Below, piece after piece: positions 29,601 to 51,042 of a stretch of DNA of 64,000 nucleotides. Position 1 is the stretch's first letter. Each line of letters starts with the position of its first letter. This DNA is from Shinella daejeonensis (lineage in GTDB: Bacteria; Pseudomonadota; Alphaproteobacteria; Rhizobiales; Rhizobiaceae): assembly GCF_024281235.1 (NCBI RefSeq), contig NZ_JAHWXY010000001.1:1054001-1118000 (forward strand), written 5' to 3'. A model generated the notes under the pieces. That model was given only the letters and a program-made list of their open reading frames with translations, ran no database searches and was not told the DNA's origin. The translations under genes were made by a program, and so were the position numbers.

Positions 29601-30797
29601 CGTTGACATCGTAGGGGTCACAGGTTCAATCCCTGTCACGCCCACCATTCGGCCCCTTGATTTTGTTGATGAAACCGCTTCGGCGGTTTTTTCTGTTTCT
29701 GGCGACTGACACGCAACTGACACGCAAAGCCCTTTCGGCACGGGCAGTGACACGCCCAAGTCTGCGAAGTAGGCATCAATCGCTTCCCTGCCCTGCGACA
29801 GATAGTCGGGCGCATAGACCGCATAGGTTTCCGTGACACCCGCTCTACGATGGCCTAGAAGCCCCTCTACCTCCCATGCAGGGACGCCGCGCTTGCGAAG
29901 TTCCTTCGCCATCGTATGCCGAAGGCTGTAGGGATTGATTTCATCGTTAAGCCCAGCGGCCCGCACCACGGTCTTGAAGCCCTGATTGATGCTCTCAATT
30001 GGGTTTCCGTGCCAGTTCACGAAACGCTTCACGCCACGCTGCTGGACAAACGGAAGCAGCGTGTCCGTGATCGGCACGATTGGCCGATACTTCTTCGTCT
30101 GTTTTCTGCCCTTCGGGTTCAGGTTGATGCGAAGGTCGTCAAGGTCCACCTGTGCCGGGGCAAGGTCAAGGATAGCGTCCGGCCTTCCCAGCGTGTTCAG
30201 AGCGATGACGGTGTAGGCATACAGGTGCGGCCATCCCTGCACCTTGGTGAGGAACGTCTTCATTTCATCCTTGTTGAGGCGGTAAGGCTCCTTGGCATCG
30301 GACCTATCTGGTTCATCCATGATGAAGGGTGCGGACGTGATTTCCCCATGCTTCCACGCCATGCGGATTGCAGCACGCCCCACGGACATGGTGCGGCTCA
30401 CGTAGCTGTTGCTGTAGCCCTTGGCTTTCAGCCACGCGATGAACTCCTTCTGTCGGGGAATGGTGAGGTCTGCGACGGTCGCCTCCCCCCAAAACTCGTT
30501 CCAATAGCCAAGGGCATATTGCGCCGCTTCGCTGGATGGGATGTTCTTCGCGTGGTTCTCCCAATACCGGACAAGGATCGTCGCCAACGGCATTTCAGCC
30601 GGAGTATGGTCCTTGAACGTCGCCTGCTTGGTGACGAACTCCGCTAGACGGATTTGGGCTTCTTGAAAGTCTTCTGTGCCAAGAGAACGGCGGATTGTTT
30701 GTCGGGAAGTGGCGTCGAACCAAGTGGCTTTCCATACAGGGGAGTTTTTGTGCTGGGAGAGGTAGTAGGCTCCGATTTGGAAACGGTCTTCTGACAT
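29598..30797 (-). CDS. int: Tyrosine integrase of element B, C-terminus encoded by the attachment site
   Basis: 399 residues. N-terminal arm and core-binding domain to ~residue 165, catalytic domain 170-340. Active-site residues: Arg205 (TLGRPDAIL), Arg293 with His294 (YSLRHTMAK), His316 (LLGHRRAG) and Tyr325 (TETYAVYAP). The box-II His three residues before Arg293 is Tyr. The end, GVTGIEPVTPTMS, is the reverse complement of the tRNA-Val 3' half. It recombines attP with the tRNA gene. It overlaps xis by 154 bp. Confidence 0.95.
   Translation of the reverse strand: MSEDRFQIGAYYLSQHKNSPVWKATWFDATSRQTIRRSLGTEDFQEAQIRLAEFVTKQATFKDHTPAEMPLATILVRYWENHAKNIPSSEAAQYALGYWNEFWGEATVADLTIPRQKEFIAWLKAKGYSNSYVSRTMSVGRAAIRMAWKHGEITSAPFIMDEPDRSDAKEPYRLNKDEMKTFLTKVQGWPHLYAYTVIALNTLGRPDAILDLAPAQVDLDDLRINLNPKGRKQTKKYRPIVPITDTLLPFVQQRGVKRFVNWHGNPIESINQGFKTVVRAAGLNDEINPYSLRHTMAKELRKRGVPAWEVEGLLGHRRAGVTETYAVYAPDYLSQGREAIDAYFADLGVSLPVPKGLCVSVACQSPETEKTAEAVSSTKSRGRMVGVTGIEPVTPTMST
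29601..29648 (+). repeat. Attachment site 1: 3' end of tRNA-Val(GAC)
   Basis: The sequence from the anticodon loop (TTGACAT, anticodon GAC) through variable loop, T-arm (ACAGG-TTCAATC-CCTGT) and acceptor 3' strand CACGCCC-A-CCA is present; the 5' half is not. It recurs at 47572 and 52741. This is the left junction of element B and the right junction of element A. It also encodes, on the minus strand, the last codons of the element B integrase. Confidence 0.9.
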
Positions 30798-31030
30798 GGC
30801 TTTGAACTCTTACTTGTTACGTAGGATTGAAGGTCTTCGAGGGTGTATTGGGCGCGGTTGCCAACCTTGGCGTGGCCGATCTCCCCGCGCTTCCTGATCC
30901 TCTGTAGGGTGAACACGGACACGCCTAGCCAATCGGCGGCTTTCTGTTCCGACATGCGGTCGGAAGCCGGTTTCGCTGGAACGCCCCGCATCATCTGAAT
31001 GACGGCCTTCATGCCGCCCGTCTTAGGCAT
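30644..31030 (-). CDS. xis: Excisionase/MerR-like helix-turn-helix protein
   Basis: 128 residues from the ATG at 31030. The DNA-binding part MSEQKAADWLGVSVFTLQRIRKRGEIGHAKVGNRAQYTLEDLQSYV is the compact winged HTH of excisionase-type proteins. A Ser/Thr/Lys-rich tail of 60 residues lies over the start of int in another frame. It probably directs excision or controls int. The large int overlap implies coupled expression. Confidence 0.75.
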   Translation of the reverse strand: MPKTGGMKAVIQMMRGVPAKPASDRMSEQKAADWLGVSVFTLQRIRKRGEIGHAKVGNRAQYTLEDLQSYVTSKSSKPCQKTVSKSEPTTSPSTKTPLYGKPLGSTPLPDKQSAVLLAQKTFKKPKSV

Positions 31031-31262
31031 CCCTTTTCCCCTTCGGGATGAAGATACCGCCACGGGGGAAGCGGATCACGTTGCCGTCGCCACGGTCGGC
31101 AACACCATCCCCATAGCCTTCGCTGTAGGCTCTTGGGAGGTTGCCGGGGCGCATGGGAGAACCGTAGTAGCCTTCTTGATACCCCACGAAAAAAACACGG
31201 GTTTCGTCATTGCGGCCATCATAGTCGCGACCTAATGCTCGCATAAAAGGTTGCCACGCCAT
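31023..31262 (-). CDS. Small element B protein of unknown function
   Basis: 79 residues (MAWQPFMRALGRDYDGRNDETRVFFVGYQEGYYGSPMRPGNLPRAYSEGYGDGVADRG...), rich in Gly, Tyr and Arg. GGAGG lies 7 nt before the ATG at 31262. It overlaps both xis and the Arc-like gene by a few bases, so it is part of the arc-xis-int transcript. Confidence 0.6.
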   Translation of the reverse strand: MAWQPFMRALGRDYDGRNDETRVFFVGYQEGYYGSPMRPGNLPRAYSEGYGDGVADRGDGNVIRFPRGGIFIPKGKRDA

Positions 31263-31414
31263 CACGCGGCCTCCTTCACGGCGGTGGCGAGGGCAGCTTT
31301 CAGGATTTGAAGAACCTCCCCGTTCAAAGTTCGATCATTGCGGGTTGCCTGTTCCGCCAGCTTCTCTTTGAGGTCGGACGGAACGCGGATGCTGAATGTA
31401 ACTAGCTCGCGCAT
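31262..31414 (-). CDS. Arc-type ribbon-helix-helix repressor, reverse
   Basis: 50 residues, the full length of an Arc monomer: VTFSIRVPSDLKEKLAEQATRNDRTLNGEVLQILKAAL. The beta strand precedes two helices, and 'R.LN.EVLQIL' is the Arc helix-B pattern. It is the first gene of the int transcript and faces another Arc-like gene 90 bp away. It probably represses its own and/or the divergent promoter. Confidence 0.8.
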   Translation of the reverse strand: MRELVTFSIRVPSDLKEKLAEQATRNDRTLNGEVLQILKAALATAVKEAA

Positions 31415-31448
31415 GGCTTCTCCTTGTTGGTCCACTATTGAACCAGTT

Positions 31449-31500
31449 TGGTTTTATCAGGTTCGTGAATTGAAGTCAAAACCACTTCGGTCTATGACCG
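31449..31500. promoter_or_regulatory. Divergent promoter/operator region between the two Arc-like genes
   Basis: Two inverted repeats lie in the 90-bp gap: TGGTTTT (31449-31455) with AAAACCA (31478-31484), and the perfect palindrome CGGTC-TAT-GACCG (31488-31500) four bases before the plus-strand ATG. Their positions suit binding by dimers of ribbon-helix-helix repressors. This is inference from symmetry; no footprint data exist. Confidence 0.5.
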
Positions 31501-31504
31501 GACC

Positions 31505-31804
31505 ATGACCGAAGATGCGCAAATGAAGATCAGGCTCCCTCGCGTTTTGAAGGAGCGCATAGAAGCCGCCGCGACGGCAGCGAACAGGTCGTGGAATGGG
31601 GAGATAGTCCAACGGCTGGAGGCGAGCTTCCAAGGGCAGGTAACAGGCTTGCCCCCTACCCCTTTGCACCAACTGGAGGAAGAACTCGCGGACCTACAGG
31701 AGAAGTTCGGAAAGGTGATGTCCGAGCTTCAAGCCGTTAGGGGGCAGGTCGGGGAAATCGACACGCGGACGCAACATCTGCTGCCCGGTCGCAAGAAGGG
31801 TTAG
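31505..31804 (+). CDS. Arc/Mnt-type ribbon-helix-helix repressor with coiled-coil tail
   Basis: 99 residues. KIRLPRVLKERIEAAATAANRSWNGEIVQRLEASF is the RHH domain. A C-terminal coiled segment (LHQLEEELADLQEKFGKVMSELQAVRGQV) resembles the tetramerising tail of Mnt. The ATG has no ribosome site (a palindrome sits there), so translation may be leaderless; ATG at codon 7 is an alternative. With the reverse Arc-like gene it resembles the P22 immI arrangement. Confidence 0.78.
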   Translation: MTEDAQMKIRLPRVLKERIEAAATAANRSWNGEIVQRLEASFQGQVTGLPPTPLHQLEEELADLQEKFGKVMSELQAVRGQVGEIDTRTQHLLPGRKKG

Positions 31805-31814
31805 CCGCGCAACG

Positions 31815-32741
31815 TCACTGTGACGTTTTGGCCGTTGAGCCAAGGCGCTCGCGCTTAAGCGCTGCGATACGCGCGCGAAAGTCGCTGGACAGGAACTCGA
31901 ATGCTTCGTCATTGATGCGCTTGAACTCCGCATCAATGATGTCCCGCCCTTCCACAATCTGCGACATGCGAGGTTTTTCTAGGCGTGGCAGGGTCACTCC
32001 TAGCAAGGTTTCACAATCGCCAGACGTGTTGTTTCTGGCAATTTCAAAAAACTCATTGGTATTGAAATTCAGGCTTAGCTGATTGATGCGGCAACCTGTG
32101 ACTTCATAGGGAACCGCGTCAATCTGATTGTTTTCCCAGCGAGTAATTCGGTAGCTCTCATTTGCGATCTGCCCGACGCTATAGGATTGCGTCCATGAGG
32201 TTTCGTCGGGCAACGTCAAGGCAATCTGCCGATAGTTACATCTGTTTGCTGCGCGCTCGCATTCGATAACTAAGTGGTTGATCGGATAGGCGATCCTTTC
32301 ATCAAGGATTTTGGCTGTTCCCTTCACGGAAGCCCAACTTTCGGTGATTACGCCGCCGAAATCAAAAGGAAAAAAGCTGACATAAGTCATATTCCTACGG
32401 GATGCTCTGTAGCCAAGGGTGTGAATTTGGTGAACCGTAAGTTCGCCAGTAGCCTTCTCTCCAAGGTCTTCCTGAAACGCCTTCTTTGCCGCTTCGTAAT
32501 CCGCTAAACCGTTATACATCAATGCATTTAGGTTTGCCTGCATGACAACATCGCCGGCTTCCGACACCGCCAGATTTGCAGCGCCGATATACATCATGGG
32601 AACGGAACTAGATCGGTCGCTTTCCGGCATGTCAACGATTTGACGCGGAAGATAGTCTCGATAGCGGGCGACTGCATCCTCTGCGGCATATGAGTATCCG
32701 CAACAAACTAACGCAAAAAAGAATGTAGCTGTCCGAACCAT
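31815..32741 (-). CDS. Secreted protein of unknown function (possible conversion gene)
   Basis: 308 residues. Signal peptide MVRTATFFFALVCCGYSYAAED with likely cleavage after YAA. The mature part has Cys residues spaced as possible disulphides (IECERAANRCNY; TGCRIN; GDCETLLG). AGGAGG lies 8 nt before the ATG. It sits between the tape measure and the integration module, where lysogenic-conversion genes are common. No family recognised. Confidence 0.65.
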   Translation of the reverse strand: MVRTATFFFALVCCGYSYAAEDAVARYRDYLPRQIVDMPESDRSSSVPMMYIGAANLAVSEAGDVVMQANLNALMYNGLADYEAAKKAFQEDLGEKATGELTVHQIHTLGYRASRRNMTYVSFFPFDFGGVITESWASVKGTAKILDERIAYPINHLVIECERAANRCNYRQIALTLPDETSWTQSYSVGQIANESYRITRWENNQIDAVPYEVTGCRINQLSLNFNTNEFFEIARNNTSGDCETLLGVTLPRLEKPRMSQIVEGRDIIDAEFKRINDEAFEFLSSDFRARIAALKRERLGSTAKTSQ

Positions 32742-32818
32742 ATTGCCCGCCTCCTAGGAAGACAGGGTTTCTCATATCGCGCCTCTGGTCAACTGCTATG
32801 AGATACGGTGCGAATGCA

Positions 32819-35800
32819 TTACCCATTCCGCCCCGCCGCGTGCTGCATTTCCTGTGCCTGCTTGGCGAGGGCCTGCGACTTCGACATGCGAACTCCGTCG
32901 CGGGGCTGATTGGCCTTCAAGGTCTTGTCCACGGTGTCCGCGATCATCCCGGCAAGGGCGGCGTCCTGTTTCTGGTTCCCCGAACCTTGGACGTTGATGG
33001 CGAGGCTGGGGGCATAGGTGTTGGACAGGCTCCCGCCGACGAAGCCCCCGGATGCGAGGCCGATGGTCTTCCCGCTGTTGATCGCCTCCAGCGCGGCGCG
33101 GTGCTTCTTCGTGGCCTTGGCGTTCACCACGAACTCCCCGTCCGACAGCATGGCCGGGATGCTATCACTGGTCGCCGTTCCCGGTCCCCGGACGTGTCCG
33201 CCATCCGCGAAGCCGAGGAAGCCGCCAAGCATCCCCATGCCCTTCTGTGTCATCATCTGCCGTATCATCTGCATGAGGGCATCGGAGAACGCCCCCGTCG
33301 CGGCTGGAGCCTGCGCAAGCGGCCCCATGAGCGAAGACAGGTTCTGCCCGAGCCCGCCAAGGTTCGGCACAACCTGCGTTGCCGCCGTGCCGATGTTCTG
33401 GATTGGCATCTGCATGGACTGCGTGGCCTGCTGCGTTGCAGCCATCTGTTCGGCAAGGCGCTTCTGGGCTTCAAGCTGTTCCTGAACGGCCTTCTGCGCG
33501 GCCTCCTGTGCCTGCTGCGCGGCGATGGAGCCGGTTGTGTTCATGTCGAGACCGGGCGGCACGGTCTCCTTCGGAAGCTGAACCCCGAAGTCACCGGGGC
33601 GGAAGCGTTCAAGGTCCGCCGTGGTGCCGTGCTTGTGGCCCCCGAACCTTGGCCCCTGTAGCTTGTCGATCCATGCGAAGTTGTTCGGGGTCGAATATGC
33701 CCGGTTCGCATAGTTCAGGTGGTCGCCCACGCCGGAGGGTGTCCCCGCCGCGCGCTGGGGAAGGTATTCATCCACAAGGCGCGATGCCCTCGCATAGCGC
33801 GGATCGTTGACGGAAAGCTGATCAACCGAATTGCGCCCGTGCTTCCATGCCGGTGGCCCGTTCACGTCGCTGAACTGCTTGCGGGCGTTCACCACGTCCG
33901 TGATGCTGTTGCCCCAGCGGCCCGACGCCCTGCGGTTCAGGATGGTGTCGATGATGCCCTTGCCCTGCATGTCCCCTTGGCCCGGAACCCATTCCGTCAT
34001 GAGGGTCTTTTTCAGGTCGGTGATTTCCTGCGGGGTGAGCGTGATGGACTTTGCGAAGCTGGTGGCCGCGTCCTGCATGGCGGGTTGCACGGCGTCCGCA
34101 ATCGCGGGCTGAACCGTCTTAGCGATGGACGCGCCGTCAATGCCGAGCGTGCCGCGCAATCCAAGGTCAGGCGTCGTGATCGGGGGAAGTGCGGCCCGCT
34201 CCACATTGCCGAGGTGAGCCGAGAAGGTCTGTTCCGCGACCGTGGCCGGAGCCGACGCGGGGAGTGAAATTGATTTCACGGGCGACGCGGACGGGGCGAA
34301 CGCCTTGGCCCATGTGGAGAAGATGTTGTTCCCCCGGCTCCCCCCGAATATCTGTTCCCACAAGGCGTCCATCGCCATGTCGAGGAGCTTTTCGGACAGG
34401 CGTTGCAGGGCGTTCAACAGGGCTTCGGCTGGCGACTTCGCGGCGATCAGGTCTTTTACGAACCCCTTGAAGGCGTCCTTGCTCGCGTCCTCCAGTTCCT
34501 GCGACCGTTGCGCGGCCTCCTGCTGCGACTTCGCCAGCTTCCGGGCTTCTTCCGCCGCGACGGAATAGTCGTCGGCAAGGGAGTTGATCTTGCTGCGAAC
34601 GTCATCGGTGATTTCAACGCCCGCCTCCTGCGCAGCGTTCAGAAGCTCCTGAACCATACGGGCCTTTTCGATGACCCGTTGCTGTTCCTCATAGGTGCCG
34701 GTGGCGTTGCGGCGTGCTTCGGTTTCCGCCTGCAACATGGCGATGCGCTTCTGGACGCGGGCAATCTCCTTCTCGAATGCATTGCGGTCGGCGGCATCGG
34801 GGGTCGGGATGCGAGGATCGTCCCGCGTGTCTATGATGGTGTCGTCGGCGTCGGTGTTCTGGCCTGCCTCCCGCTGGCGAGCGCGTTCGTTCGCCCGTTC
34901 CCGCATATTGCCCAGCACTTCGCCCACACGATCCCGCGTCACCTTGCGCAGGGCCTCCAGATAGGCTTGACCCGCCGCTTCACCGGCCCCGGCATAGCCG
35001 TTGGCGATGCGGCCAAGCTGCACGTCCCCGATGGTGCCGAGCGTGACGCCGACATGCTCGCCCACGCCGTTGATGGCCTCCACGGCGGCGTTGACGCCCG
35101 CGATGACCGTGTTCAGCCCGCTTTCCACGCCCGCAATCAGGGCGTTGACGGCGTTCAGCACGGCCTCCGCGATGGCCTGCGGCAGCTTGGTGAAGGTGAT
35201 GACGATGGTGTCGTAGACCAGCACGAACGCATTCATGATGGTGTTCGCGGCCTGCTTGGCGAAGTCGGCAAGATCGGCAACGCTGATCTCTGCCCCGCCG
35301 AGTGCGTCGGCAATTAGGTTCACGGCGGACACGAACACGTCGCGCACCGTGGCGGCGGCATCGGACGCGCCATCACGGATCATGTCCCATGCAGCGCCCG
35401 CATAGTCGTGGAGGTTCGCAAGCTCCCCCTGCACGGGCCGGATTTCGTCCCCGAAGGCGGCAAGGGCGAAGGTGGCCCCGCCGATGGCGGTTGCAAGCAG
35501 AAGCCAAGGGTTCGTCGCCACGGCGGCAACCTGCGCAATGGTGGCCCGTGCGAGGGCTGGCACATACTGCGCAAGCAGGACAGCGGCGGCAGCGGCAGCG
35601 CCCTTCGCCACGCTGTCTATATTGTCGGCCACGCCGATGATGCCGTCCGCGAAGGCGGCGGTGATGCCATGCGCTTCGTCCACCTTGCCCACATATTCGG
35701 TCATGCTGTTTTTCAGGATGACCATCGCGTCTGTGATGGTGGCGGGCATGCCGTCCGCTTCTTCCCGGAGCTTGCCAAGCTGCCCCGTGAGCGCCTTCAC

Positions 35801-36466
35801 GATCACGTCGCCCGTGAGCTTGCCCTGTGCGCCCATCCTGCGCAGTTCGTTGACGGTGACGCCAAGGCCATCGGCAAGGGCCTGTGCGACACGCCCGCCC
35901 GTGGCGATGACGGTGTTCAGGTTCTCCCCGCGAAGCTGGCCCAGCGCCATGGCCTTCGCCAGCGCGTTCGTGACGCTTTCGGCCCGCTGGCCTTTGGCCC
36001 CGGAGACCACAAGGGCGTTGTTCAGGGCTTCGGTGTAGTCGAGTTGCGTTTGCGTGCTGTAGCCAAGGTCTTTCAGCGCCTGATTGTTGGCGATGAAGGC
36101 TTCGGTGGTGTTGCCGATGTCGGAATAGGTGCGGCGGGCGATGGTGGACAGGCGGGCCATGACAGCCGCGCCCTTCTCTTGGCTCCCCACGGCGACGTTG
36201 ACGCGGGAGGAAAGATCGCTCCAGCTTTCGGCAAGCTGGCGAAGTTCATTCAGCCCGACGCCCGCGCCGATGGTGCCGAGCAATCGGTTGATGTTCGCCG
36301 TGGAGCTTCGCAAGGTGGTTTGAAGCCTGTCCGCCGACTGCTTGGCCCGCCGTTCGATCCGGTTGAACTGTGTGTCCGCCGTGCGGCTGGCACGCTGGAA
36401 ATTGCGCTCGAAATCCCGGATGCGGGCTTCAAGAGCGACGACTAGCTGTTCCGTGTCACCGGCCAT
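32819..36466 (-). CDS. Tape measure protein with internal SleB-like cell-wall hydrolase domain
   Basis: 1,215 residues. Residues 1-250 match the element A tape measure (ESWSDLSSRVNVAVGS, LNNALVVSGAKGQRAESVTNALAKAMALG). Membrane-like segments lie around 290-340. Residues ~830-960 (GIIDTILNRRASGRWGNSITDVVNARKQFSDVNGPPAW) resemble SleB-type hydrolases, which would open peptidoglycan during DNA entry. The C-terminus is Gln-rich, then GFADGGHVRGPGTATSDSIPAMLSDGEFVVNA. No tail-tip genes follow. Confidence 0.9.
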   Translation of the reverse strand: MAGDTEQLVVALEARIRDFERNFQRASRTADTQFNRIERRAKQSADRLQTTLRSSTANINRLLGTIGAGVGLNELRQLAESWSDLSSRVNVAVGSQEKGAAVMARLSTIARRTYSDIGNTTEAFIANNQALKDLGYSTQTQLDYTEALNNALVVSGAKGQRAESVTNALAKAMALGQLRGENLNTVIATGGRVAQALADGLGVTVNELRRMGAQGKLTGDVIVKALTGQLGKLREEADGMPATITDAMVILKNSMTEYVGKVDEAHGITAAFADGIIGVADNIDSVAKGAAAAAAVLLAQYVPALARATIAQVAAVATNPWLLLATAIGGATFALAAFGDEIRPVQGELANLHDYAGAAWDMIRDGASDAAATVRDVFVSAVNLIADALGGAEISVADLADFAKQAANTIMNAFVLVYDTIVITFTKLPQAIAEAVLNAVNALIAGVESGLNTVIAGVNAAVEAINGVGEHVGVTLGTIGDVQLGRIANGYAGAGEAAGQAYLEALRKVTRDRVGEVLGNMRERANERARQREAGQNTDADDTIIDTRDDPRIPTPDAADRNAFEKEIARVQKRIAMLQAETEARRNATGTYEEQQRVIEKARMVQELLNAAQEAGVEITDDVRSKINSLADDYSVAAEEARKLAKSQQEAAQRSQELEDASKDAFKGFVKDLIAAKSPAEALLNALQRLSEKLLDMAMDALWEQIFGGSRGNNIFSTWAKAFAPSASPVKSISLPASAPATVAEQTFSAHLGNVERAALPPITTPDLGLRGTLGIDGASIAKTVQPAIADAVQPAMQDAATSFAKSITLTPQEITDLKKTLMTEWVPGQGDMQGKGIIDTILNRRASGRWGNSITDVVNARKQFSDVNGPPAWKHGRNSVDQLSVNDPRYARASRLVDEYLPQRAAGTPSGVGDHLNYANRAYSTPNNFAWIDKLQGPRFGGHKHGTTADLERFRPGDFGVQLPKETVPPGLDMNTTGSIAAQQAQEAAQKAVQEQLEAQKRLAEQMAATQQATQSMQMPIQNIGTAATQVVPNLGGLGQNLSSLMGPLAQAPAATGAFSDALMQMIRQMMTQKGMGMLGGFLGFADGGHVRGPGTATSDSIPAMLSDGEFVVNAKATKKHRAALEAINSGKTIGLASGGFVGGSLSNTYAPSLAINVQGSGNQKQDAALAGMIADTVDKTLKANQPRDGVRMSKSQALAKQAQEMQHAAGRNG
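34260..34279. repeat. 20-base palindromic repeat, copy 1 (in tape measure)
   Basis: GGGAGTGAAATTGATTTCAC; the inner 16 bases form two 7-base arms (GTGAAAT/ATTTCAC) around TG. Identical to 46293-46312 in the portal gene. Here the minus strand reads VKSISL, in the portal EINFT, so the identity is at DNA level. Confidence 0.75.
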
Positions 36467-36475
36467 GATCCTACC

Positions 36476-38140: not shown

Positions 38141-38143
38141 GGA

Positions 38144-39278: not shown

Positions 39279-39280
39279 AG

Positions 39281-39583: not shown

Positions 39584-39729
39584 GCCGATTTCCCTTCCAA
39601 ATCTGTTTCGTGCCTCCCCCCGCCGGTCCCCATGGAACTGGGGAAAGTCTTGGATGCTCCCCCGGTCATGCTGGTAGTAGGCCGTGCGCGGATGTAGGCT
39701 TGTTCTTCGTTGATCGGAGACGTGATCAG

Positions 39730-40233: not shown

Positions 40234-40241
40234 CCAGCGCG

Positions 40242-40805
40242 TCATGCCAAGAACTCCGCAAGATCGGGGCAAGCACGAAAGGTGGCTGCGATGCGGCGGA
40301 TGACACGGCGGTTGTGCTTGAAGACGAAGCGTTCGTTCGGGCGCATCGGGGGTTCAGTGAGGGCGCGCTCTATGCTCCAGCCCCGATTGATCCGGTTGCG
40401 TAGGGTGGCATCCGTGATCCCCAGCCGCTGAGACCATCCCGCCACCGTGTCCGTCCTGCCCTTGAAGGTGAGAAGGACAAGGTTGTCCTTGAGCAGGTCC
40501 GTCATGTGCATGTCCTCGCCCTCAAGGACACGGTTGCCGCTGACACGGGTGCGGGTCTTGGTGACGCTCCATCCCGTGAGGGCGGCAATCTCCTTGATGG
40601 TCAGGCTACATCCCCGAAACTCGTATCGCTTGCGCTTCGGCCCCGGCGTCCGGCGCGGCATGTCGAGGGCAACGCCGTTTTCTAGGCGGCGCTGAATGGT
40701 CCGCACGCTCATGCCGGTGGCCGCTGCGATCTCCGCAACGCTGAACCACGTGCCCCTGAACAGGTGGCGGATTGGGGCCTTCTTGGTAGCGAAGGGAGGC
40801 ATCAT
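40242..40805 (-). CDS. DNA-binding protein with three helix-turn-helix repeats; candidate small terminase
   Basis: 187 residues. Three similar units: FSVAEIAAATGMSVRTIQRRLENG, LTIKEIAALTGWSVTKTRTRVSGN and DTVAGWSQRLGITDATLRNRINRGWSIERAL. It directly follows the HNH gene (ATGATG overlap) and no other small terminase is present in element B, so a terS role is plausible. It could instead be a transcription factor. Confidence 0.6.
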   Translation of the reverse strand: MMPPFATKKAPIRHLFRGTWFSVAEIAAATGMSVRTIQRRLENGVALDMPRRTPGPKRKRYEFRGCSLTIKEIAALTGWSVTKTRTRVSGNRVLEGEDMHMTDLLKDNLVLLTFKGRTDTVAGWSQRLGITDATLRNRINRGWSIERALTEPPMRPNERFVFKHNRRVIRRIAATFRACPDLAEFLA

Positions 40806-41140
40806 CGCCGTTCCTCCCGCTGCTTGCGGCTGGAGTGGCAGGGCGTGCATAGGGGTTGCCAGTTGGACCGTGACCAGAACAGGCGACGGTCGCCACGATG
40901 CGGCGTCTTGTGATCCACGACTTGCGAGGGTGCGCCGCACATGACGCAACGGGGATTGGCGGCAAGGAAGGCTTTGGCCTCCTTCTGCCATTTCGACGTG
41001 TAGCCCCGTTCCCGTGCGTTGGGGCGCTGCTGATCGAACCGGGCTTTCCGCTCCCGGTCCCGCTGAATGGAGTGCTGGCAACGTTCGCCCGGTGCGAGCA
41101 CGCATCCGCATGAACGTATCGAGGGGGCGCGCATCGGCAT
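40802..41140 (-). CDS. HNH endonuclease of element B
   Basis: 112 residues from ATG 41140 (GGAG 8 nt upstream). HNH core: ANPRCVMCGAPSQVVDHKTPHRGDRRLFWSRSNWQPLCTPCHSSRK, with two CxxC knuckles and DH/N/H catalytic positions. Packaging-associated, as in HK97 gp74. The start overlaps the upstream stop (TGATG). Confidence 0.87.
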   Translation of the reverse strand: MPMRAPSIRSCGCVLAPGERCQHSIQRDRERKARFDQQRPNARERGYTSKWQKEAKAFLAANPRCVMCGAPSQVVDHKTPHRGDRRLFWSRSNWQPLCTPCHSSRKQREERR

Positions 41141-41358
41141 CACGGGCGCTCCTTTCGAGGGACCACGCCAAGCACGTAGTCGAAGACGGCAAGGACGGTT
41201 TCCAGCCGGTCCATCGGAAGGGAGCCGTGGCCGTGGAGGAAGCGCGCGATGGCCTTCCGGTTGATGCCGGTGATGCGCCCAAGGCGGCGCATGGACACGC
41301 CGTGTTCAGCCATCAATTCGCGAAGGAGGTTGCGCCAGAAGTCGGAAGGACGTGCCAT
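41140..41358 (-). CDS. Cro/CI-type helix-turn-helix protein
   Basis: 72 residues. LRELMAEHGVSMRRLGRITGINRKAIARFLHGHGSLPMDRLETVLAVFDYVLG is a lambda-repressor-like HTH with a short tail. It lies within the structural operon and so is probably a late or feedback regulator rather than the immunity repressor. Confidence 0.75.
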   Translation of the reverse strand: MARPSDFWRNLLRELMAEHGVSMRRLGRITGINRKAIARFLHGHGSLPMDRLETVLAVFDYVLGVVPRKERP

Positions 41359-41359
41359 T

Positions 41360-41944
41360 TCACGCGGCCCTCCCTCGCTTGACGACAGTGGTGCCGAAGG
41401 AGCCGAATGCCACCTTGAACTTGTCGTCCAGCGGCATGTCGGACTGCTTGTCGATAGTGTCGTCCTTGCCCCCGAAGATGGAGCGCAGGAGGTCGAGCCT
41501 GCCCTTGTAGGCTTCCATGATCTCCGCTGGGGTCGCGTCCAGCGTCTCTGTCGGGGTCCAGCCGAGCCATCCCGTTCCGATGCGGTAAAGGCTGGCGAGG
41601 TATTCGGAGAATGGCGTGTCCCGCCGCTGCTTGACCGGCTTCACGTGGTCATTGGCCGGGGCGTCGTCGGGGTCGATCCCCGCCAGCGCCATCACATAGA
41701 GCAACAGGGGATTGGCGAGGCGAGCAACGCCGGTTTCAAGGATGCGCTGGGGGAGGTCCGACAGGTCAGTGTGGTCGCGGACGATCTCCACGGCGGCGGA
41801 CAGGCTTCCGTCCATGATCTCCCGCGAAAGGCTGGAGAAGGAACCTTCCCGGCGCTCCAGCCTGATCGCAAAGCGAAGACAGGGGCGAAGCGTGATGGCC
41901 TCGCCCCCGATGCGGACGGTGATGTCGTCCGCCAGCTTCGTCAT
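41360..41944 (-). CDS. Tail assembly chaperone of element B
   Basis: 194 residues. It follows the tail tube gene with a 4-bp overlap. DDITVRIGGEAITLRPCLRFAIRLERREGSFSSLSREI is the usual chaperone opening. The second half (ASLYRIGTGWLGWTPTETLDATPAEIMEAYKGRLDLLRSIFG) is the region often supplied by frameshifting, so here the two chaperone parts are one frame. Confidence 0.7.
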   Translation of the reverse strand: MTKLADDITVRIGGEAITLRPCLRFAIRLERREGSFSSLSREIMDGSLSAAVEIVRDHTDLSDLPQRILETGVARLANPLLLYVMALAGIDPDDAPANDHVKPVKQRRDTPFSEYLASLYRIGTGWLGWTPTETLDATPAEIMEAYKGRLDLLRSIFGGKDDTIDKQSDMPLDDKFKVAFGSFGTTVVKRGRAA

Positions 41945-42678
41945 GCCGAAACCACGATGCTGTATTCGCCTTCGGCTTCACCTGAGCCGGTATAGGTCGC
42001 GGTGATGGTGAAGTTCGACGTGCCAGCGGCGGACGGCGTGCCGCTGATCGCGCCCGTTGCCGCATTCAGGGTCAGGCCAGCCGGAAGGGTGCCCGCCGTG
42101 ACCGCATACGACACGGTGCCGATGCCGCCCGACGCGGTGACGGTGGCGGAATAGGCGTTGCCTTCGCTCGCCCCCGCCAGTGCGCCCGATGCCGGGGACA
42201 TGGTGACGACAGGCGCGGCGGGAACCTCCAGAATGGCCCCGTCGATGCCAAGGCTGAACGTTGTCTTGGTGATCTCGTCTGCGGTCCCGAAGCTGTTGCG
42301 TGCCGACATGACCGGGGCGCGGAAATAGAACACGGTGTTCTCGCCCGTGGGGGTCGGCTTGTCGTTCAGGACAACCTTGAAGGAATAGGGCATCCAGTCT
42401 TCGACGGCGGCGCGGGTCTTGTTCTGGCCGGGGTCGGACGGGTCACGCCCCACGATCAGGGCGACGGTGCCGCTGTCGATGGACCCCTTGCGGCGGCGCA
42501 CGTGACCATCGGCAAGCGACAGGAAGGTGACTTCCGTGCCTTCCGCGCCCCATTCCCCGAGGTCTTCGACTTCCTTGATTTCGGTCCAGTCCTCGCCCTC
42601 ATATTCGTTCAGGAGGGCGATTGTGGCGTTCGGGTTGCCGATGAAGACCCGGCTCTTTGCAGTCGTTTGGATAGACAT
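41941..42678 (-). CDS. Major tail tube protein with C-terminal Ig-like domain
   Basis: 245 residues. Residues 1-150 (VEDLGEWGAEGTEVTFLSLADGHVRRRKGSIDSGTVALIVGRDPSDPGQNKTRAAVE) are the tube fold. Residues ~155-245 (PVVTMSPASGALAGASEGNAYSATVTASGGIG...YAVTAGTLPAGLTLNAATGAISGTPSAAGTSNFTITAT) are a putative Ig-like (He_PIG) domain displayed on the tail surface. Confidence 0.88.
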   Translation of the reverse strand: MSIQTTAKSRVFIGNPNATIALLNEYEGEDWTEIKEVEDLGEWGAEGTEVTFLSLADGHVRRRKGSIDSGTVALIVGRDPSDPGQNKTRAAVEDWMPYSFKVVLNDKPTPTGENTVFYFRAPVMSARNSFGTADEITKTTFSLGIDGAILEVPAAPVVTMSPASGALAGASEGNAYSATVTASGGIGTVSYAVTAGTLPAGLTLNAATGAISGTPSAAGTSNFTITATYTGSGEAEGEYSIVVSA

Positions 42679-42708
42679 TGATCAGTGCCTTTCAGGATGG
42701 AGACGGGT

Positions 42709-43095
42709 TCAGGCGACAGGCCGGGACGCGGCGTGGCCGAGGATGGCGACGGCCCCGGCTGCGATGGACGTTCCACCCGCCTTGGTGAGGGCGAGACGGA
42801 CGAACCGTTTGTGGCCCCGGTAGCCGAGCTTGTAGGTGCTGGCGGCTGCGAGGGTGGCCGGTGCGGTGCTGTCCACGTGCGAAGCGTCTGCGTCGGTGAA
42901 GTCACCGGACACGTCCGTGTCGCTTTCCTGAACCTTGGCCCCGAACTCGCCGTCGCCAGCGATGGCCCCGGTGTTCAGGATGAAGGCCACGCCGTTGAAG
43001 CCGAGCGTGTCGATTGCCGCACCGTTGGCGGCGGCGGACTGGACGGCGGGTGCAAGGGCTGCAACAGCGCCGATGTTGGATGCGAGGTCACGCAT
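42709..43095 (-). CDS. Capsid-adjacent structural protein, possible decoration protein
   Basis: 128 residues (MRDLASNIGAVAALAPAVQSAAANGAAIDTLGFNGVAFILNTGAIAGDGEFGAKVQESDT...YRGHKRFVRLALTKAGG). Beta-rich and Ala-rich. It lies between capsid and tail tube, where decoration or head-completion proteins are found. Assignment by position and composition. Confidence 0.6.
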   Translation of the reverse strand: MRDLASNIGAVAALAPAVQSAAANGAAIDTLGFNGVAFILNTGAIAGDGEFGAKVQESDTDVSGDFTDADASHVDSTAPATLAAASTYKLGYRGHKRFVRLALTKAGGTSIAAGAVAILGHAASRPVA

Positions 43096-43125
43096 GGGAG
43101 TGGTCCTTTCGAGGTTCGGCGCTGG

Positions 43126-44286
43126 TTAGGAGGTCGCCATTTTCAGCTTGCGGAACTTGGCGGCCTGAATGACCCCGCCGCCGACGCGCCGCGTGGCGTG
43201 GATGCGCGTCATGCCGTTCGTGGCGAGCAGATACGGGTTGACCAGAATGGACAGGGCCACGCGGTCCACGATGCGGTAGCCGCTGAAATCGCCGTAGATG
43301 ATCGGGAAGGCTCCCGACGCCACGTCCGCCATGTCCATCATTTCGACCACGGGACGGCCAAGCAGGGTTTCCGGCTGGCCTGCCTGATAGGACGGTTGCC
43401 ACAGGTAGTTGCCCTGTCCGTCTTTCAGGCGGCGGACGGTCGCGAGCGTGGTTCCGTTCATCGCCCACGATCCCGCGTTCCGGTAGGGAGCCGGGAGGCT
43501 GTAAAGCAGGCCGATCAACGCATCCGCCGACAGGTTCGTGGCGTGGCCGTTCAGGAAGTGCGTGATGGCCGCATTGACCATGAACCCTTCCGGCTGCAAC
43601 GCACCATCGCCGTTGACGAACGCCGCGCCTTCCTTCTGTCCGAAGTCTTCGGCAAGGGCCAACCGGACTTCCTGTTCGGCCTGTCCCGCGCTGTCCGCCA
43701 GAAGCTGGTTCGACACGTCCACGAACGTGTTGACTTCCTTCACGACGATTTCAGCCTGACCAAACCCCGGCTCGCTGGCCTCCTGTGCCTGCCCTTCGCC
43801 CTTCCACTTGGCGTTCGTGATGCTGGTCCGCTTCGGATAGATCACGGACGGTGCGCCCGTGCTGCGGATGCTGGCGACGGAACGAACCGGGCTGAACAGG
43901 GTCAGGTCGCGGATGAACTCCCCGGACATTTCGGCGGGTGCCAGATAGCCGCCCTGCGGATCGCTGGAGACGGTGAGGGCGCGAAGTTCGTCGGCGGGTG
44001 CGCGGTCGCCCATGCGCAGGTAGGTTCCGAACGCCCGCGTTTCGGCGGCGGGTTCGTTGCGCTGTTCCTGCTGAGTGCCCGGACGGTTCAGCCGCGTCTC
44101 GATACCGGCGATGCGGTCGGTGACGGTGCGCAGTTCGGTCGCCAGCCGTTCGTCAAGCTGGGTGCGGTGCTGTTCGGCGGCGCTGCGAAGTTCCTCCACT
44201 GCTGCCGTCGCGGCGGCAAGCGGATCGTCTTCACGGGTTTCAATCGGGAGCGCCGAACGGGTCTCGATCTTCTGGTGCTTGGTCAT
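43126..44286 (-). CDS. Major capsid protein, HK97 family (element B)
   Basis: 386 residues from ATG 44286, overlapping the protease stop. Delta region: coiled residues ~20-75 (AAATAAVEELRSAAEQHRTQLDERLATELRTVTDRIAGIETRL). Then GGYLAPAEMSGEFIRDLTLFSPVRS, EGAAFVNGDGALQPEGFM and KDGQGNYLWQPSYQAGQP. The last segments align with the element A capsid, but overall the two are distinct. Confidence 0.95.
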   Translation of the reverse strand: MTKHQKIETRSALPIETREDDPLAAATAAVEELRSAAEQHRTQLDERLATELRTVTDRIAGIETRLNRPGTQQEQRNEPAAETRAFGTYLRMGDRAPADELRALTVSSDPQGGYLAPAEMSGEFIRDLTLFSPVRSVASIRSTGAPSVIYPKRTSITNAKWKGEGQAQEASEPGFGQAEIVVKEVNTFVDVSNQLLADSAGQAEQEVRLALAEDFGQKEGAAFVNGDGALQPEGFMVNAAITHFLNGHATNLSADALIGLLYSLPAPYRNAGSWAMNGTTLATVRRLKDGQGNYLWQPSYQAGQPETLLGRPVVEMMDMADVASGAFPIIYGDFSGYRIVDRVALSILVNPYLLATNGMTRIHATRRVGGGVIQAAKFRKLKMATS

Positions 44287-44816
44287 TTCAGGGTCTCCAA
44301 TGAGCGCGTGGCCTTGCGGATGGCATTGACGAAAGCCACGGCGCTCGCGTGGCTGGGTTCTTGGTGGACGCGGACGCTGGTGACGCGGGAGCCGGGGACG
44401 GAAGGCATGGCGACGAAGGAGACTTCGACCAGTTCCGCCTTGGTGATGTGGCGGATGCCCTTGGCGCGGGGTTCGTCGGCAAGGCGGCGGAAGCCGATGC
44501 TGAGACCCGAAATGTCGCCCGCGATCAGCATGGCGCGGATTTCCCGTGCCCGCTGAACTTCCATGTTCAACCGTCCCCGGACTTTCAGCCCGTCGCCGTC
44601 CACGGACACGGCGCGGACGCTCCCGACCACTTCGTCCGTGCGGTGGTTCCACAACATGGGGAGACGGTCGCCCTCCCATGCGAAGGCGCGGCGGTCGAAG
44701 CTGGTCCGATAGCTGTCGATCACGTCGAAGCGGACGGCCACGCCCTCAATCGTCCCGTCTTCGGCGGGAGGCGAGAACCGGACTTCGCAATCCAGATGAT
44801 CGTTCTGGCGGGTCAT
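44283..44816 (-). CDS. HK97 prohead protease (caudoviral U35 type)
   Basis: 177 residues. EGVAVRFDVIDSYRTSFDRRAFAWEG...MLWNHRTDEVVGSV (catalytic His in LWNH), then ISGLSIGFR (catalytic Ser in GLSIGF). Unlike element A, which uses a ClpP-type enzyme, B uses the herpes-assemblin-like fold. Overlaps both neighbours. Confidence 0.92.
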   Translation of the reverse strand: MTRQNDHLDCEVRFSPPAEDGTIEGVAVRFDVIDSYRTSFDRRAFAWEGDRLPMLWNHRTDEVVGSVRAVSVDGDGLKVRGRLNMEVQRAREIRAMLIAGDISGLSIGFRRLADEPRAKGIRHITKAELVEVSFVAMPSVPGSRVTSVRVHQEPSHASAVAFVNAIRKATRSLETLK

Positions 44817-45142
44817 TCCACGCCCTCCTTCTGGACGTGGCCGAACATCACGGTTTCGATGACCGGCAAGGCGAGCGCGTATAGGTCCATGATCGGGAGC
44901 GGCGCGGCATAGACGGCGACAAGGGACGCGGCCACGGCAGGGCTTTCCCCGCCGCCGATCAGCCCCAGCCGCACGAGTTCAAGAAGCTCTTGGTGCTTGA
45001 ACTCACCTGCGAACATGCGCCGCGACAGGCCACCGATGCCCGCGCCGGTCTTGCGTTCCAGTTCGGTGACAAGATCGGCGTTCAGGCGGAAGTCGCGTTC
45101 CGCGTCCCCAAAGAACTGGCGATGACTGGGGGCCTCACGCAT
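44813..45142 (-). CDS. GTA-gp10-like tail chaperone placed in the head module
   Basis: 109 residues from ATG 45142 (AGGGGG 5-6 nt upstream). The GTA-type motif LVRLGLIGGGESPAVAASLVAVYA is clear and FGDAERDFRLNADLVTELERKTG is its usual start. It overlaps portal and protease genes. A second, longer chaperone-like gene sits at 41360, so this one is out of its usual place. Confidence 0.72.
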   Translation of the reverse strand: MREAPSHRQFFGDAERDFRLNADLVTELERKTGAGIGGLSRRMFAGEFKHQELLELVRLGLIGGGESPAVAASLVAVYAAPLPIMDLYALALPVIETVMFGHVQKEGVE

Positions 45143-46355
45143 CCGTGCCCCCTGCGGTCGTGTTCGGATTGATGAACTGGTCCCCGCCTGCATACGGGGG
45201 GCGGTTCTCCATCGCCCGGACTTCGTTCGGGTTCAGGACACGGGCGGCGATCAGCGTGGAATAGGCGGTGGCGCGGGCAGCAAGATCGGTGCGCAGAAGA
45301 TCGTCCGTCAGGAACTCCGCATAGAAGGTTCCCCGGTCTTCCGGCGCGATCAGCTTCAACCGGACTTCGCCCTGCCAAGCCTTCAACCATCGGTCCAGCG
45401 TGAAGCGAAGGAAGGTCGCGCCCATTTCGGCGGCGTTGCCCCACGTCGCGCGGCCAAGCTCGAACACCATGTGCGGCGGCACGCGGAACACGCGGCAGAT
45501 TTCGAGGATGGAATGCTGCCAAAGCTGTTGGAACTGCGCATCCACGCTGTTCAGGGTCAGGGCTTGGAACTCGCCACCCTCCTCCAGCACGGCGGTTCCG
45601 CCTGAGTTCTCCCCGGCATGCGCGGCCTGCCACGATGCCTTGATGCGCTTCGCCGTTTCCGCGCCAAGGCGCTGGGGGAACTTCAACAGGCCGGACGGAC
45701 GGCCCCCGCGTCCGAACAGGCGGGCGGCGTGGCGCTCCATCGTGATCGCAAGGGCGATGGCCTCCTTGCACTCCATCACCGGGGACGCGCCCTTCACGCC
45801 GTCGATGGACGGGGCGGCGATATGGAGGATGTCCCGGCGATCAATCACGCGGTTCGTCGCGCCGTCGCTGAGCCGGTAGAGAGGTTCGGACGTGGTGCGG
45901 TCCAGTTCCACCGTGACGGCGGTCGGTGCCAGCCGGATCAGTTCGCGAGGCTGTCCGTCCTGTCGGTTGATGAAGCCATATCCGTTGCCGTGAAGGAGGG
46001 CGTCCCGCGTGACCTGTTCGCGGAACATCGCGGCTGGGGTCCATTCGTTCGCCTGATCATGCAGGAGGGCATAGGCGGGATGTTCCGGGGCGCGCTCCCG
46101 TGCATCGCCGTCGCGGCGGTAGACGTGGAGGGGAAGCCCGCCGATGGCCTCGCTGATCGCCCCCACGGCGGCGCGGACGGGCGTGGAGCGCATGGCGGTG
46201 GAGGGATTGACCGTGACGCCCGACAACGCCGGGGTCGCGCCGAACAGGTCCAGCAACCACGGCGCGGGGTCGGCAAGCGAACGGGTTTCGGCGGGAGTGA
46301 AATTGATTTCACTTCCTGCCTGTTCGGCCCTGCGCTGCTTGAAGAAATGGAACAC
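45135..46355 (-). CDS. Portal protein, HK97 family (element B)
   Basis: 406 residues. TPVRAAVGAISEAIGGLPLHVYRRDGD, AMFREQVTRDALLHGNGYGFINRQDGQPRELIRLAP, CRVFRVPPHMVFELGRATWGNAAEMGATFLRFTLDRWL are the portal core. The N-terminal codons 14-20 (SEINFTP) lie on a 20-base DNA repeat. Confidence 0.93.
   Translation of the reverse strand: MFHFFKQRRAEQAGSEINFTPAETRSLADPAPWLLDLFGATPALSGVTVNPSTAMRSTPVRAAVGAISEAIGGLPLHVYRRDGDARERAPEHPAYALLHDQANEWTPAAMFREQVTRDALLHGNGYGFINRQDGQPRELIRLAPTAVTVELDRTTSEPLYRLSDGATNRVIDRRDILHIAAPSIDGVKGASPVMECKEAIALAITMERHAARLFGRGGRPSGLLKFPQRLGAETAKRIKASWQAAHAGENSGGTAVLEEGGEFQALTLNSVDAQFQQLWQHSILEICRVFRVPPHMVFELGRATWGNAAEMGATFLRFTLDRWLKAWQGEVRLKLIAPEDRGTFYAEFLTDDLLRTDLAARATAYSTLIAARVLNPNEVRAMENRPPYAGGDQFINPNTTAGGTDA
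46293..46312. repeat. 20-base palindromic repeat, copy 2 (in portal)
   Basis: GGGAGTGAAATTGATTTCAC, identical to 34260-34279 in the tape-measure gene, 12.0 kb away. The reading frame relative to the repeat differs between the two genes. Confidence 0.75.
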
Positions 46356-46452
46356 TCGCCACGATCCCGGTGAATACGTGGCTATCCAATTTGCACATGT
46401 CGGAGGCTATGTCATCAAGCCCCCGCGTGCGTGGACCCCGCTGGGGTCCGGT

Positions 46453-47409
46453 CTATGTGTTCGCGTTCTCTTTCAGCCAAGCGTCGTTCTCGGCCATGGC
46501 GTTCTGGTATTCGGCTTCGTCCGCGTCCGTCCATTCCGTCGAGGTTTTCGACTTCCCGCCGAACTTGCCGTGCTTGCCCTTCGCTGCCAGTTCGTTTTCG
46601 GCATAGGACTTGTATTTGGCATGGGTGACGGCCTGCGCTTTCGGGGAGAACTTGAACCATTCGTCCCCCCACATTTTGGGATGCGAGGGATGAACCGTCT
46701 TCACGGCGTCGGGAATGACCGGGAACAGTTCTAGCAGCTTTGCCCGCTTCCCCGCCTTTGCAGCGGCGATCATCGCATCAACGTCATCATCGTCGGGCGG
46801 CGGGGCTATGGGGGCTTTCGGGACTGGTTTCTTAAAGATCAATTTCTTTTTCTTGACCTTCCCATCTTCCCCGGCACTTCCCTTCCCTCCCGTGGGTGCG
46901 TGCGCATGCGGGATTAGGTTGGTTGGTGAGGAAGGAGAGGAAGGGAAGGAAGTGATATGTGGCTCCCCGTTTGGTTGCCCCTTCGGTGGCTTCTTCGGGT
47001 TCGACTTGGGATGCCCCGTCTGGTTGGTTTTCGCCGGTCGATCATCCCCCAATTTGGCATGATCAGTCGGGCGCATTCCCATGAAGGTGAGCGCAAGACG
47101 GGTTGGTCGGATGAACGTCCGAGGCTTGAAGCCCTCCCATGAACCGGGTTGGCGCTCAATCAGCCCGTCCAGTTCCAAGCGGAAGAACTCCAGCTTCATC
47201 GCGTTTAGTGGCAGTCCGGATTTCTCCTGCCATTCAGTCTGTGAATAGGCCACCCACTTGCCGGGGAAGCCCCGAAGGGTGGCATTCCGCCCTCGCCACT
47301 CGAATATGACGGTATCCAGAAGGTGATAGGCGCGCCGATACTGAACCCGCCATGCGGCGAAGTCCTGCTTGTCGTTCAAAGGATAGGGATGCTTGGGGCG
47401 TTGGGTCAT
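46453..47409 (-). CDS. Winged-helix protein at the head of the structural operon; possible replication initiator
   Basis: 318 residues. The first ~110 residues look like a winged helix (RAYHLLDTVIFEWRGRNATLRGFPGKWVAYSQTEWQEKSGLPLNAMKLEFFRLELDGLIERQPG). A Lys/Pro-rich linker follows, then a C-terminal helical domain (MIAAAKAGKRAKLLELFPVIPDAVKTVHP). Replication initiators of small elements and DnaD-like proteins have this layout, and no other replication gene is seen in element B. Also compatible with a regulator. Confidence 0.5.
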   Translation of the reverse strand: MTQRPKHPYPLNDKQDFAAWRVQYRRAYHLLDTVIFEWRGRNATLRGFPGKWVAYSQTEWQEKSGLPLNAMKLEFFRLELDGLIERQPGSWEGFKPRTFIRPTRLALTFMGMRPTDHAKLGDDRPAKTNQTGHPKSNPKKPPKGQPNGEPHITSFPSSPSSPTNLIPHAHAPTGGKGSAGEDGKVKKKKLIFKKPVPKAPIAPPPDDDDVDAMIAAAKAGKRAKLLELFPVIPDAVKTVHPSHPKMWGDEWFKFSPKAQAVTHAKYKSYAENELAAKGKHGKFGGKSKTSTEWTDADEAEYQNAMAENDAWLKENANT

Positions 47410-47571
47410 AGTTTAACAAGCTATTCAGAATGAGCGGCAAAGCAAATCGACACGCGGTGACACGCAACTGACACGCAACCCCGCGCAAAAACCTACAAAA
47501 CCGTGGTTTCCGCTGGGGTCGCGTGCTAGAGTTTGCTATCGCCTAGCGTTGTTTTTCTTGTTTTGGGGTGG

Positions 47572-47619
47572 CGTTGACATCGTAGGGGGCACAGGTTCAA
47601 TCCCTGTCACGCCCACCAT
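47572..47619 (+). repeat. Attachment site 2: tRNA-Val(GAC) 3' fragment
   Basis: Same 48 bases as 29601-29648 except G for T in the variable loop (GTAGGGGGCACAGG). Right junction of element B and left junction of element C. No 5' tRNA half precedes it. Confidence 0.9.
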
Positions 47620-51031: not shown

Positions 51032-51042
51032 TTTTCCACTCC

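Follow-up and report, generated by a model that had tools for sequence, protein, structure and literature searches.

An 18-kb element of Shinella daejeonensis belongs to a family of probable capsid-forming satellites with their own tail shaft

How might an integrated element that encodes a phage head and a tail shaft reach new cells if it lacks a tail tip and lysis genes? The question is raised by element B, an 18.0-kb element at positions 29601-47622 of a 64,000-nucleotide stretch of Shinella daejeonensis DNA (contig NZ_JAHWXY010000001.1, positions 1,054,001 to 1,118,000; the whole stretch is called the window, and coordinates without a locus prefix refer to it). An earlier sequence-only reading had proposed that B is a candidate phage satellite, with a prophage that lost one segment as the alternative. 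Judged from comparative sequence analysis, the architecture of B is that of a family and not a one-off deletion, and B is probably a capsid-forming satellite of tailed phages that makes its own tail shaft and would borrow the tip and lysis functions of a helper.

B is flanked by two copies of the 3' end of tRNA-Val(GAC), which form a 51-bp direct repeat of 96% identity (29601-29651 versus 47572-47622). The 27-base core of this attachment site (att) occurs four times in the genome, all in one row, and the resulting tandem array runs from the intact tRNA gene (L116:7572-7646, 42 kb left of B) through prophage A (42.0 kb) and B (18.0 kb) to remnant C (5.2 kb). Genes were called with a home-made hexamer model and assigned functions through Pfam and PHROG matches. 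B holds about two dozen genes, all open, close-packed and all but two on the minus strand, in the reading order winged-helix gene, portal, S78 protease, capsid, tail tube, chaperones, HNH, connectors, tail terminator, head closure, large terminase subunit (TerL), tape measure, and repressor and integrase module (HTH, helix-turn-helix; ORF, open reading frame):

29601-29651, plus strand: att copy at the integrase end (tRNA-Val 3' end), 51-bp direct repeat
29598-30797, minus strand: tyrosine integrase (int), 399 amino acids (PF00589 E 2e-14, phrog_1)
30644-31063, minus strand: HTH_17 excisionase (xis)/AlpA-like protein (PF12728 E 6.5e-7, phrog_66)
31262-31414, minus strand: second small Arc-like ORF, 50 amino acids (from the gene caller; clusters with Arc)
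31505-31804, plus strand: Arc-like repressor, divergent (PF03869 E 3.4e-8)
31815-32741, minus strand: 308-residue protein with a signal-peptide-like start (by eye), in cargo position; no Pfam or PHROG family
32819-36466, minus strand: tape measure, 1215 amino acids (PF20155 E 6e-56)
36476-38140, minus strand: TerL (PF20441/PF03354)
38144-38470, minus strand: head closure protein, HCP (PF05521)
38467-38877, minus strand: tail terminator/completion protein gp17 (PF11367, phrog_176)
38874-39293, minus strand: HK97 gp10-like neck/tail completion protein (PF04883)
39281-39583, minus strand: head-tail connector Ad1 (PF05135)
39730-40233, plus strand: 167-residue ORF that interrupts the operon on the opposite strand, common to the Aliihoeflea element L013
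40242-40805, minus strand: HTH/homing-endonuclease-like protein (phrog_3377)
40802-41143, minus strand: HNH endonuclease (PF01844, phrog_589)
41140-41358, minus strand: Cro/CI-type HTH protein (PF13443)
41360-41944, minus strand: tail assembly chaperone-like protein (phrog_7493, no function given; annotated phage tail assembly chaperone in a plasmid relative)
41941-42678, minus strand: major tail tube protein with Ig-like domain (phrog_158, PF05345)
42709-43095, minus strand: small protein beside the capsid gene, probable decoration protein (phrog_5707, no function given)
43126-44286, minus strand: HK97 major capsid protein (PF05065 E 4e-78)
44283-44816, minus strand: S78 prohead protease (PF04586)
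44813-45142, minus strand: small protein of gene transfer agent (GTA) family, chaperone-like (phrog_8985, labelled tail tube protein; relatives annotated gene transfer agent family protein)
45135-46355, minus strand: portal (PF04860 E 1e-97)
46453-47409, minus strand: winged-helix protein, first gene, candidate replication initiator (family of 8 rows)
47572-47622, plus strand: att copy at the far end, 51-bp direct repeat

Gene calls and family matches agree with the sequence-only reading that int, xis, the Arc repressors and the portal-to-tape-measure set are intact and open, and that a secreted protein and then the integration module follow the tape measure. Between tape measure and int, where that reading had seen no tail-tip or lysis gene, the Pfam and PHROG scans likewise recognised none: the interval holds the secreted-looking 308-residue protein, the Arc genes and xis. 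The same scans recognised no TerS in B; a TerS-like gene precedes TerL in many relatives. The tube protein of B is 40% identical over 154 amino acids to the tail tube protein of Rhizobium phages, and the small protein beside the capsid gene has counterparts in loci lacking tail markers. Residues 840-932 of the tape measure match Cell Wall Hydrolase (PF07486 E 3e-6), and the protein ends in what we call the FADGG module, the last 130 amino acids from FADGG to the stop.

To the further claim that B has no clear replication gene an addition can be made at the first gene, whose winged-helix product weakly resembles phage replication initiators. One member of its family matches phrog_270 (replication initiation, E 3e-4). 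The predicted structure has a block at residues 11-120 with a predicted local distance difference test score (pLDDT) of 78-94; a fold search among viral structures gave 15 matches at E of at most 0.001, three of them named replication proteins, with TM-scores of 0.16-0.28, and among the matches listed from the PDB only winged-helix proteins appeared, the best being MarR-like (E 6e-3).

Searches with TerL yielded 30 genome loci and 69 viral-contig loci; 29 of the genome loci bear alphaproteobacterial titles and one belongs to a metagenome-assembled genome named Cytophagaceae, that is, the family's named hosts are alphaproteobacterial with one exception. We collapsed 119 TerL loci into 90 groups at 97% identity, 69 of them usable (portal, TerL and at least 2.5 kb beyond), and scored as tail-shaft markers the tape measure, gp10, terminator, and tube or chaperone. 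The gene set of B, whose presence in other genomes the sequence-only reading had proposed to look for, does recur: all markers were present in 53 of the 69 usable non-redundant loci, none in 12 and some in 4, and the set tends to vary as a unit. Counting every locus without these markers as head-only would be an overcount, and we abandoned that reading, because L018 (of the 12) and L020 (of the 4) carry an unrelated tail shaft with a tape measure like that of Rhizobium phage 16-3. A separate set of 18 loci, taken from 16 related genomes, includes a single locus without a tape measure; the other 17 have one. By eye, loci L016, L017, L025, L029, L031, L073 and L078, which are without recognised tail genes, hold large defence-like cargo in that place instead (kinase, reverse transcriptase, nucleotidyltransferase, ATPase).

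Members of the family are uniform in size. Repeats were detected in only part of the loci; the att-bounded tail-type elements (n = 14 including B; repeats of at least 23 bases, with L042 excluded as merged at 97% and L158 for its 17-base repeat) span 16.3-18.5 kb, with a mean of 17.6 and a standard deviation of 0.54, and four further bounded elements without the common tail set span 15.5-17.6 kb. The family is also separate by terminase. TerL identity among members is 48-91%, the best phage TerL among the matches listed from 50,697 phage records reaches 35%, and all 1805 matching records fall below 60%. In a TerL tree of 97 rows, built by a short search and with some long branches, 89 family rows lie on one side of a branch with a Shimodaira-Hasegawa-like approximate likelihood ratio (SH-aLRT) of 99, opposite the phages and one other element. 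Family gene order, with TerL after the connectors and before the tape measure, is unlike that of the three phages examined. The tail genes have ratios of nonsynonymous to synonymous substitution (dN/dS) of about 0.2-0.6 between B and four relatives, rough values given that dS is near or at saturation in most comparisons. Two loci, L163 and L167, may represent another lineage of satellites: TerL, capsid, protease and portal are arranged in a different order beside an integrase, and the TerL gene of L163 was called in two pieces.

These results bear on the alternative that B is a defective prophage whose tip and lysis segment was lost. Decay does occur at this site, where the 5.2-kb remnant with its peptidase and glycosyl-hydrolase fragments adjoins B. 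A deletion in one lineage is nevertheless hard to reconcile with a tail-shaft set common to 53 of 69 loci, with the uniform sizes, with tail genes apparently under purifying selection, with a gene order unlike the three phages, and with 0 of 50,697 phage records having a TerL at 60% identity; we therefore reject this explanation as very unlikely on shared architecture, sizes and selection.

Some relatives are circular plasmids. A 17.5-kb plasmid of Paracoccus marcusii carries head and tail-shaft genes, with the tape measure spanning the record start and the tube not recognised, and a 23.4-kb plasmid of Methylorubrum populi carries head and tail-shaft genes, a Tn3 element, TerL in two pieces and a gpM-like gene; neither had a hub or distal tail protein (Dit) match by tblastn. 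Among the circular plasmid members (L117-L120), some of which have replication-initiation or ParA-like genes, no family integrase was recognised; L117 and L120 have tape measures. One gene of B is of GTA-family type, as would be expected of a GTA or a tailocin-like domesticated cluster; with intact int, a xis-like gene, repressors and att sites, plasmid relatives, and both capsid and terminase present, we regard such an origin as scarcely credible.

We then asked whether the relatives of B hold tip or lysis genes between tape measure and integrase, the finding that the sequence-only reading had named as turning B into a deletion; none appeared in 27 of 27 loci or in 13 att-bounded relatives. 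The distance from tape measure to integrase or serine recombinase is 1.4-5.1 kb in all 27 non-redundant loci showing both (seven duplicates dropped; three loci on contigs without portal), the loci extending about 10 kb past TerL, so that a much longer insert would place the integrase of its element beyond the region covered. From the 165 ORFs of these gaps we took 126, no more than two from any cluster, and scanned them with Pfam and PHROGs; the 25 families listed in each case, of 29 and of 71 respectively, included Arc, HTH, chaperone and gpM-like minor tail matches and none for a hub, a Dit or a lysin. In the 13 att-bounded tail-type relatives, the core set (in which the c24 proteins of 520-596 residues, annotated integrase, were counted) leaves out 127 of 310 genes, and PHROGs returned no hub, Dit or lysin for them among the 25 listed of 73 families; five of the 13 have a gpM-like gene. 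Of ten larger non-core ORFs of these relatives, scanned as a set of their own, one gave an HNH-like match and nine gave nothing. With 13 tip and lysis proteins as queries, tblastn over 122 loci detected Dit within two elements (L032 and L040; L148 is a third by label only), no hub inside any element, a hub only as flank of L040, and endolysin-like matches that fall within tape-measure genes. A PHROG family labelled 'tail fiber' (phrog_12296, 86 positions), matched in two relatives, was not taken as a tip protein; to judge from coordinates, it probably corresponds to ORFs of 87-88 residues beside the decoration gene in L019 and L038.

The same searches bear on whether B could be an autonomous mini-siphophage whose tip and lysis proteins, for instance the 308-residue protein or the hydrolase-bearing tape measure, have diverged beyond recognition. 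The hydrolase match in the tape measure of B speaks for this, as do VanY domains in 8 and Hydrolase_2 domains in 3 of 57 tape measures scanned (55 from the family) and the many genes without a family among the 127 outside the core set. On the other side, the largest non-core ORF of the 13 relatives encodes 365 residues, well below the hubs of the host prophages (701-1668 residues), and PHROGs readily detects such proteins in controls: Dit, tail protein and hub in both host prophages and the endolysin in A, with 8 of 10 control proteins assigned to a tail or lysis family. As for the 308-residue protein, its gene lies in a low-GC stretch (GC 0.51), it had no match in Pfam or PHROGs and no homologue among the loci searched, so it is no conserved tip; its single-sequence model (mean pLDDT 32.5) is too poor for a fold search. 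We consider an autonomous phage unlikely.

If B is instead a satellite that would use a helper's tip, traces of contact with resident prophages might be expected in its relatives. We compared ten satellites from eight genomes with 23 prophage tails of our choosing, 12 from those eight genomes and 11 from other genomes with hub family phrog_5616 (G022 was excluded, its hub lying on a short contig). The best match of the satellite tape measure was a prophage of its own genome in four of ten cases and the second best in two, against a shuffled mean of 0.53; a fraction of 0.0018 of shuffles reached four of ten. Control genes gave own-genome best matches in 0/10 (gp10), 1/10 (gp17), 1/10 (capsid), 0/6 (tube) and 1/4 (chaperone). 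Prophages with this hub occur in 9 of 17 satellite genomes versus 30 of 134 others (Fisher p 0.015, uncorrected for kinship).

The C-terminus of a siphophage tape measure faces the tail tip. In genome G038 the last 131 residues of the satellite tape measure are identical to those of a same-genome prophage on a different contig; the shared tract (400 bp, 99.75%; L160:7188-7586 versus L178:7256-7655) begins in frame at an F-S-D-G-G motif and ends at the stop codon, and in the prophage the distal tail protein gene follows directly. The S. curvata contig has a tail-shaft satellite, at about 1037.25-1055.92 kb, whose insertion cuts the tip-hub gene of a prophage in two; that prophage also holds terminase-like and portal-like genes, tube, tape measure, Dit and other late genes. 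Of the 30-base repeats in this region, the best (23/30) falls exactly where one would be expected.

L040/L152, L172:6174-7295 and L173 (G012 C12:1036174-1059136): S. curvata satellite and prophage

The satellite's own Dit is 66% identical to that of the surrounding prophage, the C-terminal 223 residues of its tape measure are 43% identical to the prophage's, and none of its head genes exceeds 39% against the six comparison phages.

A further explanation holds that B is a capsid-forming satellite whose tail genes merely interfere with helper tail assembly, while its DNA travels on complete tails of the helper. In keeping with this, the TerL tree mixes loci that have the common tail markers with loci that do not (at least seven changes of tail presence over 79 rows, L018 scored as tail-less, one of them within a near-identical Ancylobacter pair), which indicates that the tail set is dispensable over evolution. 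Yet tube or chaperone, terminator, gp10 and tape measure come and go together, which exceeds the needs of interference, and in one genome the tape measure matches a co-resident prophage at its C-terminus; we hold interference to be highly improbable.

Several points weigh against a satellite that takes its tip from a resident phage. For A, Pfam recognised one tip or lysis protein out of four, which makes the Pfam negative weak; the PHROG results show 25 of 71-73 families, so singletons may be hidden; and it is possible that B has a tip protein without recognisable sequence. Some relatives carry one early tip gene, gpM-like or Dit. In the ranking comparison the tube protein shows no own-genome preference (0/6), portal and TerL (1/10 each, B to A) are no valid controls because the 12-kb prophage stretches rarely reach them, and kinship of hosts, hence of phages, could inflate the result. 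Exact identity of the module comes from G038 only, with data compatible with exchange in either direction, and L160 is a basal family member in which integrase, ends and tube protein were not recognised. The S. curvata satellite Dit is nearly as close to the prophage of G014 (64% over 190 amino acids), its tape measure scores higher against the prophage of G074, and 8 of 17 satellite genomes lack the phrog_5616 hub. For B itself, no second tape measure of the genome matches the C-terminal module at E 1e-10, and A matches the tape measure at the N-terminus only.

The satellite reading of B, supported by size uniformity, the separate TerL clade, the plasmid relatives and the tape-measure and Dit matches to same-genome prophages, can be set beside known systems; the comparisons are by description, as given in the available portions of the cited papers. 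Capsid-forming phage-inducible chromosomal islands (cf-PICIs) encode heads and depend on a helper for tails (PMC10690885, PMC13230959, PMC13345910). B shares with them its satellite size, integrase, xis-like gene, HNH, portal, protease, capsid, connectors and TerL; of the cf-PICI head, connector, HNH and terminase set all but TerS was found in B, and, as regards the cf-PICI primase/replication module and AlpA, it has the winged-helix initiator candidate in place of a primase, and the HTH_17 xis-like gene. Family members without tail genes resemble cf-PICIs, whereas B and 53 of 69 loci encode a tail shaft, which in B comprises tube, terminator, chaperones and tape measure. Satellites described so far either alter the heads of their helpers or build heads of their own and rely on the helper for complete tails. 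PLE11 of Vibrio cholerae, called in 2026 the first satellite family of its kind, builds its chimeric tails from a tape measure and chaperone of its own together with the tube, sheath, baseplate components and fibres of ICP1 (PMC12987554); like PLE11, B has a satellite-encoded tape measure and chaperone, and unlike it B encodes a head and its own tube protein. Putative tmp genes are shown for a sampling of cf-PICIs in an Extended Data legend of that paper (PMC12987554). Helper-embedded PICIs lie in cognates of lambda late genes, 97% of them in A, B, C and E, with one integrase clade found from an E. coli element (PMC10111431); the S. curvata satellite L040 is like them in sitting inside a prophage late gene with its own homologue of another late gene, and B differs in occupying a tRNA gene (tRNA-Val). 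The cf-PISP satellite-plasmids are circular and have head genes without tail genes (PMC13230959); the circular relatives L117-L120 resemble them, except that L117 and L120 have tape measures. In the available open-licence text we found no description of a satellite with its own tube and tape measure and without a tip, in line with the remark in the sequence-only reading that satellites with their own tail shaft are not a standard class. B is a mobile element with its own integration module from which part of the virion and lysis set is missing, the general mark of a satellite, and the tip hub, Dit and lysis genes that together characterise an autonomous temperate siphophage were not found as a set in B or in the relatives searched. 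B departs from the cf-PICI feature of having no tail genes, and on these descriptions we place it as a new variant of capsid-forming satellites, with a presumed use of helpers.

We infer the following course of excision, replication, particle formation and use of a helper's tip. B encodes a predicted head, packaging motor and tail shaft (tube, terminator, chaperones and tape measure) and appears to lack Dit, hub, fibres and lysis. When a helper siphophage grows, B would excise from tRNA-Val, replicate, probably from the winged-helix initiator, and package its roughly 18 kb into its own capsid. Its tail would grow on the tip complex of the helper, and its particles would adsorb through that tip and leave by the helper's lysis. 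The C-terminal module of the tape measure, from FADGG to the stop, is the likely docking piece, exchangeable with those of resident prophages. More broadly, B may represent a widespread class of tip-stealing satellites with their own head and tail shaft, in which the last 130 or so tape-measure residues, with or without an own Dit or gpM, serve as a swappable adaptor to the tip of a resident phage, recombination of the module sets the choice of helper, and lineages swap the tail shaft for cargo within a fixed package of about 17 kb; we see this generalisation as evenly balanced between being right and wrong. If it is right, the division of labour between satellite and helper shifts to the last piece, as the family makes everything except the tip. 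Helper specificity would be predicted to lie in a short tape-measure adaptor, how satellites change helpers would be open to direct test, and some elements of 14-20 kb in Alphaproteobacteria that are scored as incomplete prophages would be complete satellites.

The helper of B itself could be A, the C22 prophage (L122) or an outside phage. Prophage A carries its own integrase, primase-helicase, TerL, a tail with Dit, tail protein and hub, and an endolysin. The sequence-only reading had pointed to the homologous tape-measure N-terminus of A, and this part stands: A is the best match of the tape measure of B among the 23 prophage tails (53% over the first 297 amino acids). The C-terminal module has no counterpart there, and because only the N-terminus matches we treat A as a weakly supported helper. 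In viral contigs, modules like that of B occur in family elements and also in L199, L201 and L204, where Dit and hub follow, which makes a helper of this type plausible.

The remaining observations concern the neighbourhood. Remnant C (47623-52785, with the third att copy) contains transposase-like ORFs, an M15 peptidase, a glycosyl hydrolase 108 fragment and an integrase fragment; we considered it as the lost tip segment of B and rejected this, since it lies outside the att site of B and its lysis-like and integrase fragments suggest a separate remnant. Within the tail-tip operon of prophage A there is a GNAT acetyltransferase gene (17295-17726). Rfam small RNA matches were found for ar35 and Atu_At1 (28880-29017 and 63575-63682); by eye, the ar35 match overlaps the end of a cold-shock-like ORF near the att site.

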